Assembly: GCA_903910645.1 (NCBI GenBank)
Contig: CAIWAD010000182.1
Span: 1-34,341 of the forward strand
Direction of reading: 5' to 3'
Origin: an uncultured bacterium
Lineage (GTDB): Bacteria; CAIWAD01
DNA: 34,341 nt
Shown: positions 1-34,341 of the stretch, piece after piece
Layout: each line of letters starts with the position of its first letter
Numbering within the stretch: position 1 is the stretch's first letter
The notes under the pieces: generated by a model
Told to the model about the DNA's origin: nothing
Seen by the model: the letters and a program-made list of their open reading frames with translations, nothing else
Databases searched by the model: none
Made by a program: the position numbers and the translations under genes

Positions 1-56
1 CTCCAGCTTTTCACTCCACCCCAGCGGCGCGTGCTGTTCACCAGAAGAATGTTCAC
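1..56 (-). CDS. Glycosyltransferase family 4-like protein, N-terminal fragment (partial)
   Basis: This is the first part of a gene that runs off the left edge on the minus strand. It starts with GTG at 56-54, overlapping the TGA of the upstream glycosyltransferase gene (55-53) in a GTGA arrangement. The 18 visible codons read MNILLVNSTRRWGGVKSW. A hydrophobic first beta strand followed by a WGGV-type glycine-rich turn is typical of the N-terminal Rossmann domain of GT-B glycosyltransferases such as family 4. Position at the end of an MsbA/GT9 operon supports a role in building LPS or another surface glycan. Only 18 residues are visible, so the family call is tentative, but the reading frame and the coupling are clear. 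Confidence 0.6.
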   Translation of the reverse strand, partial: MNILLVNSTRRWGGVKSW

Positions 57-1141
57 CGGTGGGACCCCATGAACGATGTGACCCAGACTCCCTGGGCCGT
101 GGCCAATGCTTCCACCACTTCCCACACGGCATCCACTGGAATGTCTTCCAGGGCCTGCGCCTCCGTGCAGACGCCGCGCGTGGGAACAGCCCGCGTGCGG
201 GAGGCGGTGGCCACCCAGCGCTGGGTGGAATCGTCGGGGCAGGTCCAGTTCTCCGGGTGCACATGGCCGAAGACCGCCACCGTGGGAAGACCCGCCAGGG
301 CCGCCAGATGCTTGGGTCCACCATCATTTCCCACGAACAAGGCGCAGCGGGCCAAAATCTGGGAGAGCACGGCCAGGGATGGCATGGGATAGTCGAACAG
401 GGCGTCAGGCCCCAACTCCAGAGCCACACGGCGGGCAGCCTCGCTCTCCCCGGGACCATAAACCAACAGGGGCTGCAGGCCACGGGAAGCCAGGCGACGG
501 CCAATCTCCGCCAGTTTCTCCGGCGGCCACACTTTGTATGCCTGGCGGCTGACGCCAAAAAGCGCGACCACCGGCCAGCGGAACGGACCACCGGGACGGG
601 TGGGGGGCAGGTTGGCCTTTCCCCTGAACCAGGTGTGGCAGAAATGCTCGGCGGCTTGGCGGGATTCCCCGGAAACGGGAAAGTCCAGCCCAAGATCCCG
701 GCCCGCAGGAGCGGCCCCGGCATCCAGGGCCGTGGACAGCATGCGCAGTTTGTCCAGGGCGCTGTAATCCGCGTTGTGTCGGGCATAGCGATGCGTGTAG
801 CCAAGGGCACGCCACCAGCGCCCGCCAAAGCCCACACGCACGGGGGCTCCACTCAGGCGGGCCAGCAGCACGGTCTTGGGCAAACCCTGGCAATCCACCA
901 CCCAGTCGTAGCGGCGGCGGCGCAATTCCCTGCCCATGTCCAGCAGATCCACGGCGGTGGCGTGGGTGGGCAGGACCAGGCATTCTGACACGCACGGATT
1001 GTGCTCCAGAAGCTGCAGGCCCATGCCTTCGCAAAGGAAGTCCAGGCGGGCGTCAGGAAAGGTGCGCCGCAGATGGCGCAGCAGGGGCGTGGTCATCAGG
1101 ATGTCGCCCAGGCGACGCAGCTGGATGACCAGGATGCGCAT
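53..1141 (-). CDS. Glycosyltransferase family 9 (ADP-heptose:LPS heptosyltransferase-like)
   Basis: The protein (362 aa) has the GT9 layout: an N-terminal domain opening MRILVIQLRRLGDILMTTPL, in which the RxGD turn follows the first strand as in WaaC/WaaF, and a C-terminal domain with FVGNDGGPKHLAALAGLP, the conserved donor-binding segment of heptosyltransferases. These enzymes add sugars, classically L-glycero-D-manno-heptose, to the LPS core at the inner face of the inner membrane. The exact sugar cannot be told from sequence. I start it at ATG 1141-1139, which shares one base with the TGA of the DUF6165 gene (TGATG). An in-frame TTG one codon earlier is less likely. It belongs to a minus-strand operon with an MsbA-like exporter. 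Confidence 0.9.
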   Translation of the reverse strand: MRILVIQLRRLGDILMTTPLLRHLRRTFPDARLDFLCEGMGLQLLEHNPCVSECLVLPTHATAVDLLDMGRELRRRRYDWVVDCQGLPKTVLLARLSGAPVRVGFGGRWWRALGYTHRYARHNADYSALDKLRMLSTALDAGAAPAGRDLGLDFPVSGESRQAAEHFCHTWFRGKANLPPTRPGGPFRWPVVALFGVSRQAYKVWPPEKLAEIGRRLASRGLQPLLVYGPGESEAARRVALELGPDALFDYPMPSLAVLSQILARCALFVGNDGGPKHLAALAGLPTVAVFGHVHPENWTCPDDSTQRWVATASRTRAVPTRGVCTEAQALEDIPVDAVWEVVEALATAQGVWVTSFMGSHR

Positions 1142-6400: not shown

Positions 6401-7036
6401 GCGGGCAACCTGCTGGGGGGCGGCAGCGACCAGGGCCTCTTCATGCAGACCTGGGCGGCGGGGCTGGCCTATTCCAATGGCATCCGCCCACGGGAACGCA
6501 CGGGCCAGCTGCGCTACTACGCCGAACGCTGCCCCGACGCGGCCCAGACCTTGACTTTTGTGGAAGACAAGGTGCGGCAGGCGCCTGCGGTGGATGTCGC
6601 ACGCAGCCAGACCGCCTTCATCACCGCCATGGGTGGATCCCGTGGAGCCCTGGACCACCCGGAGCGCACGGCGCACAGGGCGCGGGAGCTTCAGCAGGTC
6701 CTGGTGGACACGCCCACGGGCCGCCGCACCCAACGCTGGCAACAGGGACCCACCGGTCTGGATGAGCTGCGCACCTTCCGTGGCGCGCTTGTGGACCTGA
6801 TGAAAGACGAAGAGCTTCCCGCACGCCTGGAGGAGCGCAAGCTTCCCGTGCATGCCCTGGTCTTTCCCGGTCTGGGCGCGCCGGATTGGCGACCCGTCCT
6901 GGGCGGCCAGTTCTTCGTCATCGGGCCGGAGCGGCAGTTCGACCTGGTGGACGCTTATCTGGCCACGCGCAGCCAGGGTCTGAAGGTGCAACGCCTGCGC
7001 CCCTGCCACTGGTGGTATCTGGAGGCCCGCCCATGA
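3491..7036 (+). CDS. Exported M16 family zinc metalloprotease (presequence protease/M16C-like)
   Basis: A 1181-residue protein with a signal peptide (hydrophobic core about 7-18, likely cleavage after ANA near 24), so probably periplasmic. The inverted zinc motif HxxEH is HTLEH at residues 93-97. The third zinc ligand is probably Glu190 in TVYTEM, spaced as in the PreP/falcilysin (M16C) branch. The length fits a single-chain M16C enzyme with active and inactive halves. The C-terminal segment GLAYSNG followed by RYYAERC resembles the substrate-binding R/Y region of the family. Such enzymes degrade peptides, for example cleaved signal or transit peptides. The gene is divergent from the MsbA operon (77-bp gap) and overlaps the next gene by ATGA. 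Family is confident, subgroup less so. Confidence 0.85.
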   Translation: MHQASKLAVLGLFLASMGLNRANASTWLERFNERPTLEGFTCRHLYLDSQDQVAGACLVHESGFTLDLLPMDTAPQAFVWIHTPVADDRGEPHTLEHLLLGKGRRGLAVANAEEFRLSSSSAFTGQLETCYHFSTALSSADFLVELEDRLDALLHPDFSDEEIRREVCHIGPKAGPQGLELEEKGTVYTEMLSSWDHPWSRAGRKLQEWLHGNGHPLAVNQGGIPEAIRRMEPADIRAFHQRSHFLGNMGAQVVLPAGDMTESLLARLNQSLRRLEKAVPGLAPSPRSTLPPSRPAPEARCEVLDVPGAREGEAALVLAAWPPVKDLDRQEQLEAQFFLSVAAQGESSDLHGQLLDPQVTTDPVGAAYVSCWLAEEPGHPVNLSLGSVPAARVTEEGLKALRDRICRRFGEVAAWPAGHAELEALKTRELALISAARRQGRTMLDHPPGFGERGTGSYWADHLRTLRESGGFRLRLDQEPLLARLEARLKTPGNPYSALLSRLGLANQLPHVVGTRSQPALLEEKESQRVARLEAFADSLESAYGTQDRQQALRRFAADYEATSAQLEAQRVGLTVPELPRELPFDLDPELPVEMAVLDSGTPLCHGRFDAMQGAQWNMAVDVGEGPSSPWMPLLPAFLTETGLQGDDTLDFRQVEDALRREVGWASCWLDTDLEAGRAELVLGASGASAAECARGLHWLRRFCLDANWSAANRPRLREIARRELAQARERRQGSEESWVEVPAAAWPQRQQPGLLRAGCFLTQEHELFRCAWALEPRPEGFNALLAQLETRGRKPDSTRAWLRTLLDTPVPRRSASWSKAFHRTAALSAPQVSALGLALEDLDAFAAELPEVEFPMLWDRLVMEILSAPLLLDELEKLRPALLQGSRRAWFTGSLAARHAVMEEAQRLDAAFARKSVLRSAPITLWQVPLSPNALCGLVDPGGSSGVILSTAPLAWQQAFTRPDLEDYLAGNLLGGGSDQGLFMQTWAAGLAYSNGIRPRERTGQLRYYAERCPDAAQTLTFVEDKVRQAPAVDVARSQTAFITAMGGSRGALDHPERTAHRARELQQVLVDTPTGRRTQRWQQGPTGLDELRTFRGALVDLMKDEELPARLEERKLPVHALVFPGLGAPDWRPVLGGQFFVIGPERQFDLVDAYLATRSQGLKVQRLRPCHWWYLEARP

Positions 7037-31209: not shown

Positions 31210-31718
31210 GCCGTTAACTTAGGGCCGCCCCAAGCAGGGTGCAAGCCGCGAAAGTGGAGGCGGCGGGGTGAAAGGCATGTCCAACATGTTCAAGGGCCGC
31301 CCGAACATGAACAACTGATGCCGAGAAATGGTCTATTCAATTCTCAACAATTATTGACATTCAAGCACTTAAGAATTGGAACGGGATTTGCTTTGCGCGG
31401 CTTTGCCTTAAAACCTGTCCGGTCCCATCGATCACCGATGTATCAGGCCGGGCACGTTGCATGCTTCATCCATGGTGCGAACACGCCTGCCGCGTGACCG
31501 TCCCTCGTGCGCTTCGGGCATGTGTGACGGAGCGGGCGTTGCTTCCTGCCATGGAACAGGATCTGGTTGCTGCTGTCATCCTTGCCTGTCCCGCCCCCGA
31601 CGCGGCACAGGCCTGGCGCGATCGTGGATGTCTCGGGGATGGCCTTCAGGCGATCCAGTGGCGTCAAGTGAAGTCCGGAACGCACAATCCCGCGCCGGAT
31701 ATCAGTGGCAACGAGCAG
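31210..31718. other. Long non-coding region with AT-rich island
   Basis: No convincing protein gene is seen over this 509-bp stretch. It contains a cluster of inverted ATG/CAT-type repeats (31276-31309) and an island of about 60 bp (31316-31378) far more A+T-rich than the surroundings, holding a TTGACA at 31354 without a good -10. From about 31385 onward the sequence is G+C-rich with several small potential stems, for example CATCG (31427-31431) with CGATG (31437-31441). It runs into a strong terminator. It could be a promoter region plus a non-coding RNA. Confidence 0.4.
31276..31309. repeat. Nested inverted repeats upstream of the methyltransferase gene
   Basis: CATGT (31276-31280) pairs with ACATG (31284-31288), and CATGTTC (31285-31291) pairs with GAACATG (31303-31309). 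The same bases also read as a 13-codon frame starting at ATG 31277. An operator for the divergent transcripts is the simplest reading. Confidence 0.35.
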
Positions 31719-31749
31719 GGCGGCCCGCGTGCGGGCCGCCTTCATTTTT
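31719..31749 (+). terminator. Intrinsic terminator upstream of the cupin gene
   Basis: GGCGGCCCG (31719-31727) and CGGGCCGCC (31732-31740) form a nine-base perfect GC stem with a four-base loop, followed on the plus strand by TTCATTTTT. No protein gene precedes it on this strand for more than 500 bases, so it ends either a non-coding RNA or an attenuated leader of the cupin gene 36 bases downstream. Confidence 0.75.
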
Positions 31750-31784
31750 GCCTCCTTCGGGAAAAGCGGGGCAAGGGGAGCAAG

Positions 31785-32132
31785 ATGGAACGGGAAATCG
31801 GGCACCGACCCTGGGGGCGTTACGAGGTTCTGCTGGACGATCCCCAGGTGAAGGTGAAGCGCATTGTGGTGGAGTCGGGCGCCCGCCTGTCCTTGCAGCG
31901 CCATCACCACAGGGACGAGCACTGGTTTGTGGTGGCAGGTAGAGCCACCGTGACGCTGGACCTTGAAGAGCGGACCTTGCTTCCAGGCGAGGCCGTGGAC
32001 ATTCCCCGCCTCACCTGGCACCGCGTGCTGAATGAAGGAAGCGCCGCCCTGACCTTCATCGAAGTGCAAACCGGCGACTCTTTCAGCGAAGAGGACATTG
32101 AGCGTCGGGAAGACGATTACGGCCGGGCCTGA
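31785..32132 (+). CDS. Cupin, mannose-6-phosphate isomerase type II-like
   Basis: A 115-residue single-domain cupin. HRPWGRYEVLLDD at the start and LSLQRHHHRDEHWFVVAGRA in the middle, giving the metal-binding His/Glu set, then PGEAVDIPRLTWHRVLN, match the C-terminal isomerase domain of bifunctional AlgA/ManC proteins. It probably binds a divalent metal and isomerises fructose-6-phosphate and mannose-6-phosphate, or a related sugar phosphate. The nucleotidyltransferase half found in ManC is absent. ATG 31785 follows GGGGAG. A longer upstream frame from 31461 crosses the terminator and is rejected. Confidence 0.85.
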   Translation: MEREIGHRPWGRYEVLLDDPQVKVKRIVVESGARLSLQRHHHRDEHWFVVAGRATVTLDLEERTLLPGEAVDIPRLTWHRVLNEGSAALTFIEVQTGDSFSEEDIERREDDYGRA

Positions 32133-32427: not shown

Positions 32428-33861
32428 ATGGCCAAAGTCCTCGTCATCGGGGCCGGATTCGCCGGCCAAACCGCCGCCTTGTATCTGGGAAAGGCCCTTG
32501 GACGCGACCACGACATCACCGTGGTGAACGCCAACGACCATTTCTATTTCATTCCCTCCTTCGTGTGGGTGGGAACCGGCCGCATGAATCCCGCCAGGAC
32601 GCGTTTTCCCCTGAAGCCGGTGTACGACCGCTTCCGCGTGCGCTTCGTGCACGGCATGGCGCATACCATCAATCCAGTGGCCCGCACGGTGGGCATTGAG
32701 CGGCGCGGCCAATCGGGCAATGGCCAGCTGACCCTGGAGTACGACTACCTGCTCATCGCCACCGGGCCCAAGCTGAACTTCGAGGGCACGCCGGGCCTGG
32801 GTCCCCACGGTGGCCACAGCCAGTCCATTTGCACCCTGCCCCATGCCGAAAGCGCGCGGGATGGCTATCTGGAATGCGTGGACCGCATGACGCGCGGGCA
32901 GCGCCAGCGCCTGGTGATTGGCACGGGCCATCCCGGCGCCACCTGCCAGGGCGCGGCCTTTGAGTACATCAGCAACCTGCACAAGGACCTGGTGGCGCGG
33001 GGCATCCGCGACAAGGCCGACCTGCACTGGATTTCCAACGAGCGCGAGCTGGGTGACTTCGGCATCCGGGGCATCCGCATGCCGGTGAAGGCCCGTGGCG
33101 AAAGCAGCGCCGATTTCATGGGCGCGGCCTTCAAGGATTTCGGCATCACCTGGGAGGTGCAGAAGGGCGTCACCGGCGTGGAGGCCGGCAAGGCCCACTG
33201 GGAGGATTTTGACGGCAATGAGGGCGAGACGGCTTTCGACTTCGCCATGCTCATCCCGCAGTTCCAGGGCCAGCGCATGGCGGTGGAGGGTGGTGAAGGC
33301 CTGGCGGAGCAGATTTTCAATCCAGCCGGCTTTGTGAAAGTGGACGGCATCTACGGTCTGCCCTTCCCGGAGCTGGAGCGCACGCCGGAGGCCTGGCCCG
33401 CTGTCTACCGCAACCCCAGTTTCCCGGAAATCTTCGCGGCGGGCATCGCCTTCGCGCCTCCGGGACCCATCAGCGTGCCCCACACCAATCCGCGCGGCAC
33501 GGCCATCAGCGCGGCGCCGCCACGCACGGGCATGGTGGCGGGCATCATTGGCCGGGTGTGCGCGCTGAACATCATCGATCTGGTGCGCACGGGCAAAGCC
33601 ACGCACCAGGAGCGCATGACGGAAATGGCCGCCGCCTGCATTGCCAGCATGGGCGACAGCCTGTGGGACGGCAGCGCCGCCACCATCATGATTTATCCAG
33701 TGGTGCCCAACTACAAGGCCTATCCCACGGAAGACGGGCGGGATCCCTTCGTCACCCATCTGGAGATGGGCTTGGCCGGCGCATGGATGAAGCGCATGAT
33801 CCACTCCACCTTCATGCACAAGCTGCAGGGCCGCGTGGGCTGGCAGTTCATTCCGGAATAG
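32428..33861 (+). CDS. SQR-like FAD-dependent oxidoreductase
   Basis: A 477-residue flavoprotein of the sulfide:quinone oxidoreductase group. FAD binding is shown by VLVIGAGFAGQTAALYL at the N-terminus, the ATGPK turn (about 111-115) and PEIFAAGIA near 333-341. Cysteines at 135 (SQSICTL) and 173 (GATCQGAAFEY) sit where SQR has two of its three functional cysteines. At the third expected site, before PRTGM, the sequence is SAAPPRTGM with no Cys. Quinone-linked enzymes of this kind oxidise sulfide at the membrane; without the third cysteine the chemistry may differ. Start ATG 32428 follows AAAGGA. Its stop overlaps the binding site of the next small gene. Confidence 0.82.
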   Translation: MAKVLVIGAGFAGQTAALYLGKALGRDHDITVVNANDHFYFIPSFVWVGTGRMNPARTRFPLKPVYDRFRVRFVHGMAHTINPVARTVGIERRGQSGNGQLTLEYDYLLIATGPKLNFEGTPGLGPHGGHSQSICTLPHAESARDGYLECVDRMTRGQRQRLVIGTGHPGATCQGAAFEYISNLHKDLVARGIRDKADLHWISNERELGDFGIRGIRMPVKARGESSADFMGAAFKDFGITWEVQKGVTGVEAGKAHWEDFDGNEGETAFDFAMLIPQFQGQRMAVEGGEGLAEQIFNPAGFVKVDGIYGLPFPELERTPEAWPAVYRNPSFPEIFAAGIAFAPPGPISVPHTNPRGTAISAAPPRTGMVAGIIGRVCALNIIDLVRTGKATHQERMTEMAAACIASMGDSLWDGSAATIMIYPVVPNYKAYPTEDGRDPFVTHLEMGLAGAWMKRMIHSTFMHKLQGRVGWQFIPE

Positions 33862-33870
33862 GAGCTTTCC

Positions 33871-33987
33871 ATGGAAATCACCCCGCGCGATCGCTTCTGG
33901 ATGAACTGCAAGCTCTTTCAGTTGCTGCGTTTCATTGTGCTGAACCTGAAGATCCTCAAGGCGGTGGACCATTCGAAGCGCGCCTGA
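33871..33987 (+). CDS. 38-residue companion protein of the SQR-like enzyme
   Basis: A short gene reading MEITPRDRFWMNCKLFQLLR and then FIVLNLKILKAVDHSKRA. An AGGAG overlapping the flavoprotein stop lies six bases before ATG 33871, so translation is very likely. The peptide is amphipathic: a polar start, then a hydrophobic helix (about residues 15-32) with Lys on one face, and a basic end. That is what a monotopic membrane anchor or small subunit would look like. I do not recognise a named family. The tight coupling to the SQR-like gene suggests the two work together, for example by holding the flavoprotein on the membrane. Confidence 0.7.
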   Translation: MEITPRDRFWMNCKLFQLLRFIVLNLKILKAVDHSKRA

Positions 33988-34112: not shown

Positions 34113-34341
34113 TCAGCGGGACTTGCTCAACAAATCCCACAGCAGCTTCACCACGGTGGCGGCCACCACCACGCGGAACACCACGGCCACCAGCCGGGCA
34201 TGACGGCGCATCACCAGGCGTGATCCCAGGCGGGCGCCCAGGAATTGGCCGGAGCCCATCACCAGACCAGGCAACAGCATGACATGGCCGCCCAGGGCGA
34301 AGGCTCCCAGGCTGGTGATGTTGGAAGTGAAGTTGACCACC
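34113..34341 (-). CDS. TSUP/TauE-SafE family permease, C-terminal fragment (partial)
   Basis: The last 75 or so residues of a membrane protein whose start lies beyond the right edge. Visible features are VNFTSNITSLGAFALGGHV, then MGSGQFLGARLGSRLVMR, and a last hydrophobic helix ending LLWDLLSKSR. The NFTSN, GQxxGARLGSRL and final-helix pattern is that of the sulfite exporter TauE/SafE (TSUP) family, which carries sulfite, sulfonates or other organic anions across the inner membrane. It faces the SQR-like pair tail to tail. A link to sulfur metabolism is possible but not shown. Confidence 0.8.
   Translation of the reverse strand, partial: VVNFTSNITSLGAFALGGHVMLLPGLVMGSGQFLGARLGSRLVMRRHARLVAVVFRVVVAATVVKLLWDLLSKSR

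Follow-up and report, generated by a model that had tools for sequence, protein, structure and literature searches.

What is an easily overlooked gene of only 38 codons doing directly behind a gene for an SQR (sulfide:quinone oxidoreductase), an enzyme central to the oxidation and detoxification of sulfide? The question is raised by a contig of 34,341 nucleotides from an uncultured bacterium (CAIWAD010000182.1 of assembly GCA_903910645.1), which is called the window here. On the forward strand the small open reading frame runs from an ATG (33871-33873) to a TGA (33985-33987), occupying positions 33871..33987, and its product of 38 aa is MEITPRDRFWMNCKLFQLLRFIVLNLKILKAVDHSKRA; it is the short form of a family associated with SQR genes and the only copy in the window's own genome. 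It is preceded by a gene for an SQR-like flavoprotein of 477 aa (32428..33861, + strand, ATG...TAG). The stop codon of that gene, TAG at 33859-33861, is overlapped by an AGGAG ribosome-binding site (33860..33864, + strand), from which 6 nt (CTTTCC) lead to the ATG of the small gene. An earlier note on this DNA had read the correctly spaced AGGAG on the preceding stop and the clean start and stop as signs of a real small protein, and these signals are all present. Upstream of the SQR gene lies a mannose-6-phosphate isomerase C-terminal cupin domain (31461-32132, + strand; PF01050) with no obvious link to SQR. Beyond the small gene, and facing the pair, there is a fragment of a TauE/SafE-type sulfite exporter (34116-34340, - strand) which is cut by the contig end and scores 30.3 bits against a cut-off of 32.6. 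It is possibly a neighbour from sulfur metabolism.

The partner gene encodes an SQR, as judged from its predicted fold and from the presence of all three catalytic cysteines. Its best match in the PDB is the SQR of Acidithiobacillus ferrooxidans (E 4.6e-45), and it matches Pyr_redox_2 with an E-value of 5.2e-12. The predicted fold of the window SQR superimposes on 3t2y with a Z-score of 42.2 and an rmsd of 1.9 over 399 aligned residues, and the model of a second member, L053, matches 3hyv_A in Foldseek with an E-value of 4.9e-38. The codons of Cys135 (32830..32832), Cys173 (32944..32946) and Cys404 (33637..33639), all on the + strand, align with the cysteines of the motifs QSICT, GASC and NAVCFADMGD, respectively, in the A. 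ferrooxidans chain, and each cysteine is invariant (48/48). The C-terminal tail, residues 463-477 (33814..33858, + strand), ends in GWxxIPE, and within it K465, G471, W472, I475, P476 and E477 are invariant in 15/15 and 48/48 homologues. The best NCBIfam model for the window SQR, that of type III SQR, gives 52 bits where 525 would be required, and the protein is thus covered by no curated equivalog. The clade to which it belongs is well separated: in a sample of 150 genomes its members scored at least 597 bits against a profile of the clade, and the homologues that came next reached 88.5 bits at most. PMC4584964 gives types II, IV and VI as the usual epsilonproteobacterial SQR types; from its distribution we would guess that the clade is type VI (SqrF).

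When a genome collection was scanned with patterns derived from SQR only, 80 loci were obtained, giving 81 SQR loci together with the window, and a homologous small open reading frame was found downstream of the SQR in every one of them. The 81 loci are partly non-independent, as L011 is apparently identical to the relative G002 (same protein) and L021 and L032 are nearly identical. The records name Chloroflexi, Actinobacteria, Bacteroidetes, Ignavibacteriales, Krumholzibacteriia, Calditrichia, Phycisphaerales, Desulforudis and Fervidibacillus. Start codons, which were picked by a script and of which that of L074 is doubtful, are ATG in 77 and GTG in four cases. The proteins fall into a short form of 33-49 aa and a long form of 48-67 aa with the common core Q-x3-F-x3-N-x-K. 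An alignment of 52 of the 81 members gave the consensus MEITxxxRFWMNxKLxQLWRFIVLNLKILKAVDHSKRS; the C-terminal end is constant and the family as a whole is strongly conserved. In the long form the core reads WQ-(I/F)-x-(R/K)-F-x3-N-x-K, and this form stands behind remoter SQRs ending GHWIK...PGWxxIPE. Directly after SQR it is labelled 'hypothetical protein' on plasmids of Thiodictyon (WP_172965425.1), Sulfurovum (WP_229937370.1) and Marivivens (WP_197498098.1). Two unusual arrangements were also seen: on G233:C123 (L104 1456-1605, L095 1456-1605) one SQR is followed by two different long-form proteins in tandem, and in the Desulforudis record (L088 4412-4735) the small frame lacks its stop and extends to 107 aa. 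The window peptide had no match in Pfam or NCBIfam (E up to 1) or in PHROGs (E up to 0.1), eight other members gave only two sub-threshold matches in Pfam and NCBIfam (PF25658, E 0.059; NF008527, E 0.15), and a search of BFVD returned low-quality matches only. Neither the short nor the long form is covered by a curated family.

The small open reading frame is co-inherited with this SQR clade, just downstream of it and on the same strand. Among 336 relatives the SQR was present in 12 (E up to 1e-60), and 11 of these carry the small frame behind it, including one recognised by eye only (G163) and one that stands behind an SQR broken by stops (G237). In the twelfth, G003, repeated sequence truncates the SQR at residue 462 and the small frame is absent, so that the C-terminal tail of the SQR and the small gene were lost together. 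The repeat in this genome of the same family (G003:C83; L173/L009) is a dispersed one (CGTAAGGGTCGATCGCGATCGACCC...) that shortens the SQR by 15 residues and recurs several times downstream. A phylum sampled separately through G322 is taken to be the Campylobacterota because its peptides resemble the small protein of Sulfurovum. There, 34 of 150 genomes possess the SQR clade, the identical 34 possess the small frame and the other 116 possess neither, 39 of the latter having weaker Pyr_redox or SQR-like flavoprotein homologues. The profile match to the small frame starts 46-206 nt downstream of the SQR on the same strand in the 34 genomes. The earlier note had held that a real gene should keep its frame behind related SQR genes, without stops in close relatives; the 81 loci and the exact co-occurrence in this separate sample bear that out. 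In the phylum of G063 the SQR occurs in 8 of 201 genomes, all eight with the small frame, and two further genomes, G462 and G551, gave peptide matches without an SQR at that threshold. The sample around G116 had peptide-profile matches in 8 of 145 genomes, as counted by profile. In G654 a second SQR copy is followed by a 60-aa frame that resembles the family by eye, not by profile. Several candidates were discarded: the match in G551 runs through a stop, and its surroundings showed no SQR; weak single-sequence matches in G057, G014 and G018 are due to chance, as they sit within other genes in the wrong frame or on the opposite strand, or run across a stop; and weaker profile matches lie inside or across unrelated frames (G106, G225) or span stops (G096). 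Over 80 loci the identity of the SQRs correlates with that of the small proteins (r 0.59, Mantel p about 0.001), a correlation that shared descent alone could yield.

What kind of protein is it? The earlier note called the peptide amphipathic, hydrophobic and basic. The last two attributes hold for the family, which is hydrophobic with a mean net charge of +5.4 (80 members), but an amphipathic helix had to be rejected, because 17-40% of permuted orders gave a helical hydrophobic moment as high as that of the family mean, which is not above chance. None of 80 short forms reaches a 19-residue Kyte-Doolittle mean of 1.6, as a transmembrane helix would, and one of the two long forms tested passes it (2.02). 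The membrane anchor suggested in the earlier note remains plausible as a role. AlphaFold2 was run on the natural readthrough chain (SQR, linker and small protein), a fusion which favours placement near the C-terminus, and predicted that roughly residues 14-37 of the small protein form a helix. In the window model, whose linker has 4 residues, the helix has a pLDDT of 40-50 and its placement is not confident; in the L053 model, with a linker of 16 residues, the helix spans 508-531 in a block of pLDDT 64-75, falling to 50 at the last residues. In both fused models the range aligned to the Aquifex aeolicus SQR extends to the final residue of the small protein: 1..532 of the L053 model, aligned to 2..418 of that SQR (415 residues, rmsd 1.8), and 1..519 of the window model (rmsd 1.9). 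Alignments to 3t2z_A and to several human SQOR entries end inside the small protein, and those to most other A. ferrooxidans entries get no further than the linker or the SQR tail, short of it. Such models, whose aligned ranges are known by their two end residues only, give a hint that the helix of the small protein replaces the C-terminal helix of single-chain SQRs. Sequence similarity of the small protein to the C-termini of type I SQRs was not found.

The explanation for these observations probably lies in an SQR that is built from two gene products. As the same tiny protein stands behind SQR in many distantly related bacteria, it is probably an undescribed small second subunit of this enzyme class; the suggestion of a small subunit, made in the earlier note, is now the best reading on the strength of the 81 loci and the co-occurrence within phyla. 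Its parts are not equally secure. That the small protein is a functional partner of this SQR we consider very probable, and that it is physically bound as a subunit we consider probable. That it serves as a helix on the membrane or quinone side, supplied in trans, seems to us to fall slightly short of an even chance. More tentative still is the proposal that throughout the clade, across many phyla, the SQR consists of two subunits, the membrane- and quinone-facing helix having been split off as a separate protein of 33-67 aa. The proposed sequence of events is as follows. The small protein would be made from the SQR transcript via its own ribosome-binding site, and the helix that it forms over roughly residues 14-37, which is basic and hydrophobic, would bind the SQR beside the conserved C-terminal tail. 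There it would complete the membrane-facing side at the quinone entrance and do in trans the job of the last C-terminal helix of single-chain SQRs. If it were missing, the flavoprotein would still be made but would be poorly seated in the membrane or transfer electrons poorly to quinone. The small protein would thus be the obligate small subunit of a two-gene SQR, with a mode of action like that of CydX in cytochrome bd.

Co-occurrence and shared transcription are equally compatible with a protein that acts on the SQR without being a stable part of it, such as an assembly factor, a helper in FAD loading or membrane delivery, or a regulator that binds briefly. The low confidence of the docked position leaves room for such a role, and so does the arrangement of one transcript. 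Terminator-like hairpins were found within 120 nt past the small frame in 17 of 79 loci (3 of 79 under stricter criteria), the rate in dinucleotide-shuffled sequence being 0.3%, and between SQR and the small frame in only one of 25 gaps of at least 40 nt, so the SQR transcript most likely ends with the small gene. The L013 locus has a strong hairpin with a run of T between the two genes (6438-6540); it could reduce the output of the small gene or make the SQR message more stable, and unequal amounts of the two products would suit a helper. However, strict 1:1 pairing, near-universal adjacency, the constant C-terminal end and strong conservation are more simply explained by a stoichiometric part, and we regard a helper of this kind as unlikely.

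A different membrane enzyme might also be the true partner of the small protein, its association with SQR being one of linkage only. Two relatives carry an intact small frame and a broken SQR, namely G237 and G001. In the latter, a genome of the same genus (G001:C78; L172/L003), the SQR has a deletion between residues 43 and 211, a frame change and an in-frame TAG, and the small frame beside it starts with GTG. Recent decay or assembly error could account for both. A possible lone copy exists in G462 (L169 2381-2548), where a 56-aa frame with a long-form-like core (LPWQLVRFVWINFKMIDMI) matched with an E-value of 4e-6 and no SQR lay within the 5 kb fetched; this frame is possibly a lone paralogue or a chance match. 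Against another enzyme stands the absence of the small frame from all 116 genomes without the SQR clade in one of the phyla sampled, and the genomes of 50 of the 79 loci L012-L090 each have exactly one peptide-profile match (50/50), at the SQR locus. Mere linkage is very improbable.

In the window the small frame is in frame with the SQR behind its TAG, as it would be if it were a C-terminal extension of the SQR reached by stop-codon readthrough or frameshifting. As a general mechanism this is refuted by the frames relative to SQR, which are distributed 29/25/27 over the 81 loci so that only 29 are in frame, and by the gaps, which range from an overlap up to 270 nt with 9-12 nt as the commonest. 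In addition, 78 of the 81 small-frame starts have 4-6 bases matching AGGAGG in front of them, and several of the in-frame linkers contain further stops. The variation in gap and frame implies that the small frame is translated separately and is no readthrough tail, and we give an extension of the SQR next to no credence.

The small frame is under purifying selection and evolves as protein. Pairwise differences per site at codon positions 1/2/3 are 0.27/0.17/0.57 for the 45 members whose length is exactly 38 codons, and between the window and its nearest relative, L011, dN is 0.16 and dS 0.76 (NG86); in the 60 bases past both stop codons the same two sequences have, by eye, no obvious similarity. 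A conserved stretch that always lies just behind SQR could in principle be a structured RNA element or a terminator whose reading frame is incidental, but this idea has practically nothing left to recommend it, being refuted by third codon positions that are the most variable and dN below dS, by the conservation of protein rather than DNA across many phyla and codon usages, and by terminator-like hairpins that stand after the frame. With a homologous frame at all 81 loci and the codon pattern of protein evolution, the small protein proposed in the earlier note is almost certainly real and translated.

The nearest functional parallel to the proposed small subunit is CydX. As described in part of PMC4325964, CydX is a bound subunit of 37 aa that is needed for cytochrome bd activity and is tied to one class of CydA, and CydX, CydY and CydZ are small proteins of cytochrome bd oxidase operons that annotation often misses; PMC6005532 describes CydX as a single transmembrane, hydrophobic helix. 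Like CydX as portrayed there (PMC4325964), the small protein has about 37 aa, is encoded downstream of the catalytic gene of a quinone-linked respiratory enzyme and is tied to a class of the large subunit. Unlike CydX, it stands behind SQR at each of the 81 loci and not with cydAB, its short form lacks the hydrophobicity of a transmembrane helix (0/80), and its partner is a monotopic flavoprotein while that of CydX is an integral oxidase. By context and hydropathy it is thus not a CydX. The small protein had no sequence match at E up to 5 among the PDB chains, a collection which presumably includes CydX-containing oxidases.

Known single-chain SQRs have no partner, and their C-terminal membrane helices are part of the chain itself. 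The window SQR has the same fold and the three cysteines of the enzymes from Acidithiobacillus ferrooxidans and Aquifex aeolicus (3kpk, 3hyv and others); unlike them, the SQR of this clade has a longer chain with GWxxIPE at its end, and a separate small gene goes with it. Flavocytochrome c sulfide dehydrogenase (1fcd, 3vrd) shares the fold of a sulfide-oxidising flavoprotein (Z 30.4 to 1fcd_A) and the possession of a second subunit. In flavocytochrome c that subunit is a c-type cytochrome, whereas the peptides of all 81 loci lack the haem motif CXXCH and have almost no cysteine.

To our knowledge, SQRs have so far been described and assayed as products of single genes. A small protein paired with SQR was not found described in the open-access literature searched, which included parts of PMC4584964 and PMC10205796. 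On the best reading, what is new is the obligate small partner gene of one SQR clade; the SQR itself is a known kind of enzyme. If the clade needs the partner, present annotations are incomplete, and clones without it may appear weak or inactive. How the different SQR types bind quinone is a question raised in PMC4584964, and under the same premise expression of both genes together would make that question testable. If the membrane- and quinone-facing helix has indeed been split off, the clade would represent a third SQR architecture beside the single-chain enzymes and the cytochrome-bearing flavocytochrome c, and any heterologous expression of its SQRs on their own would have assayed only part of the enzyme. 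The pairing also adds a strong case that respiratory enzymes rely on overlooked proteins of less than 50 aa.
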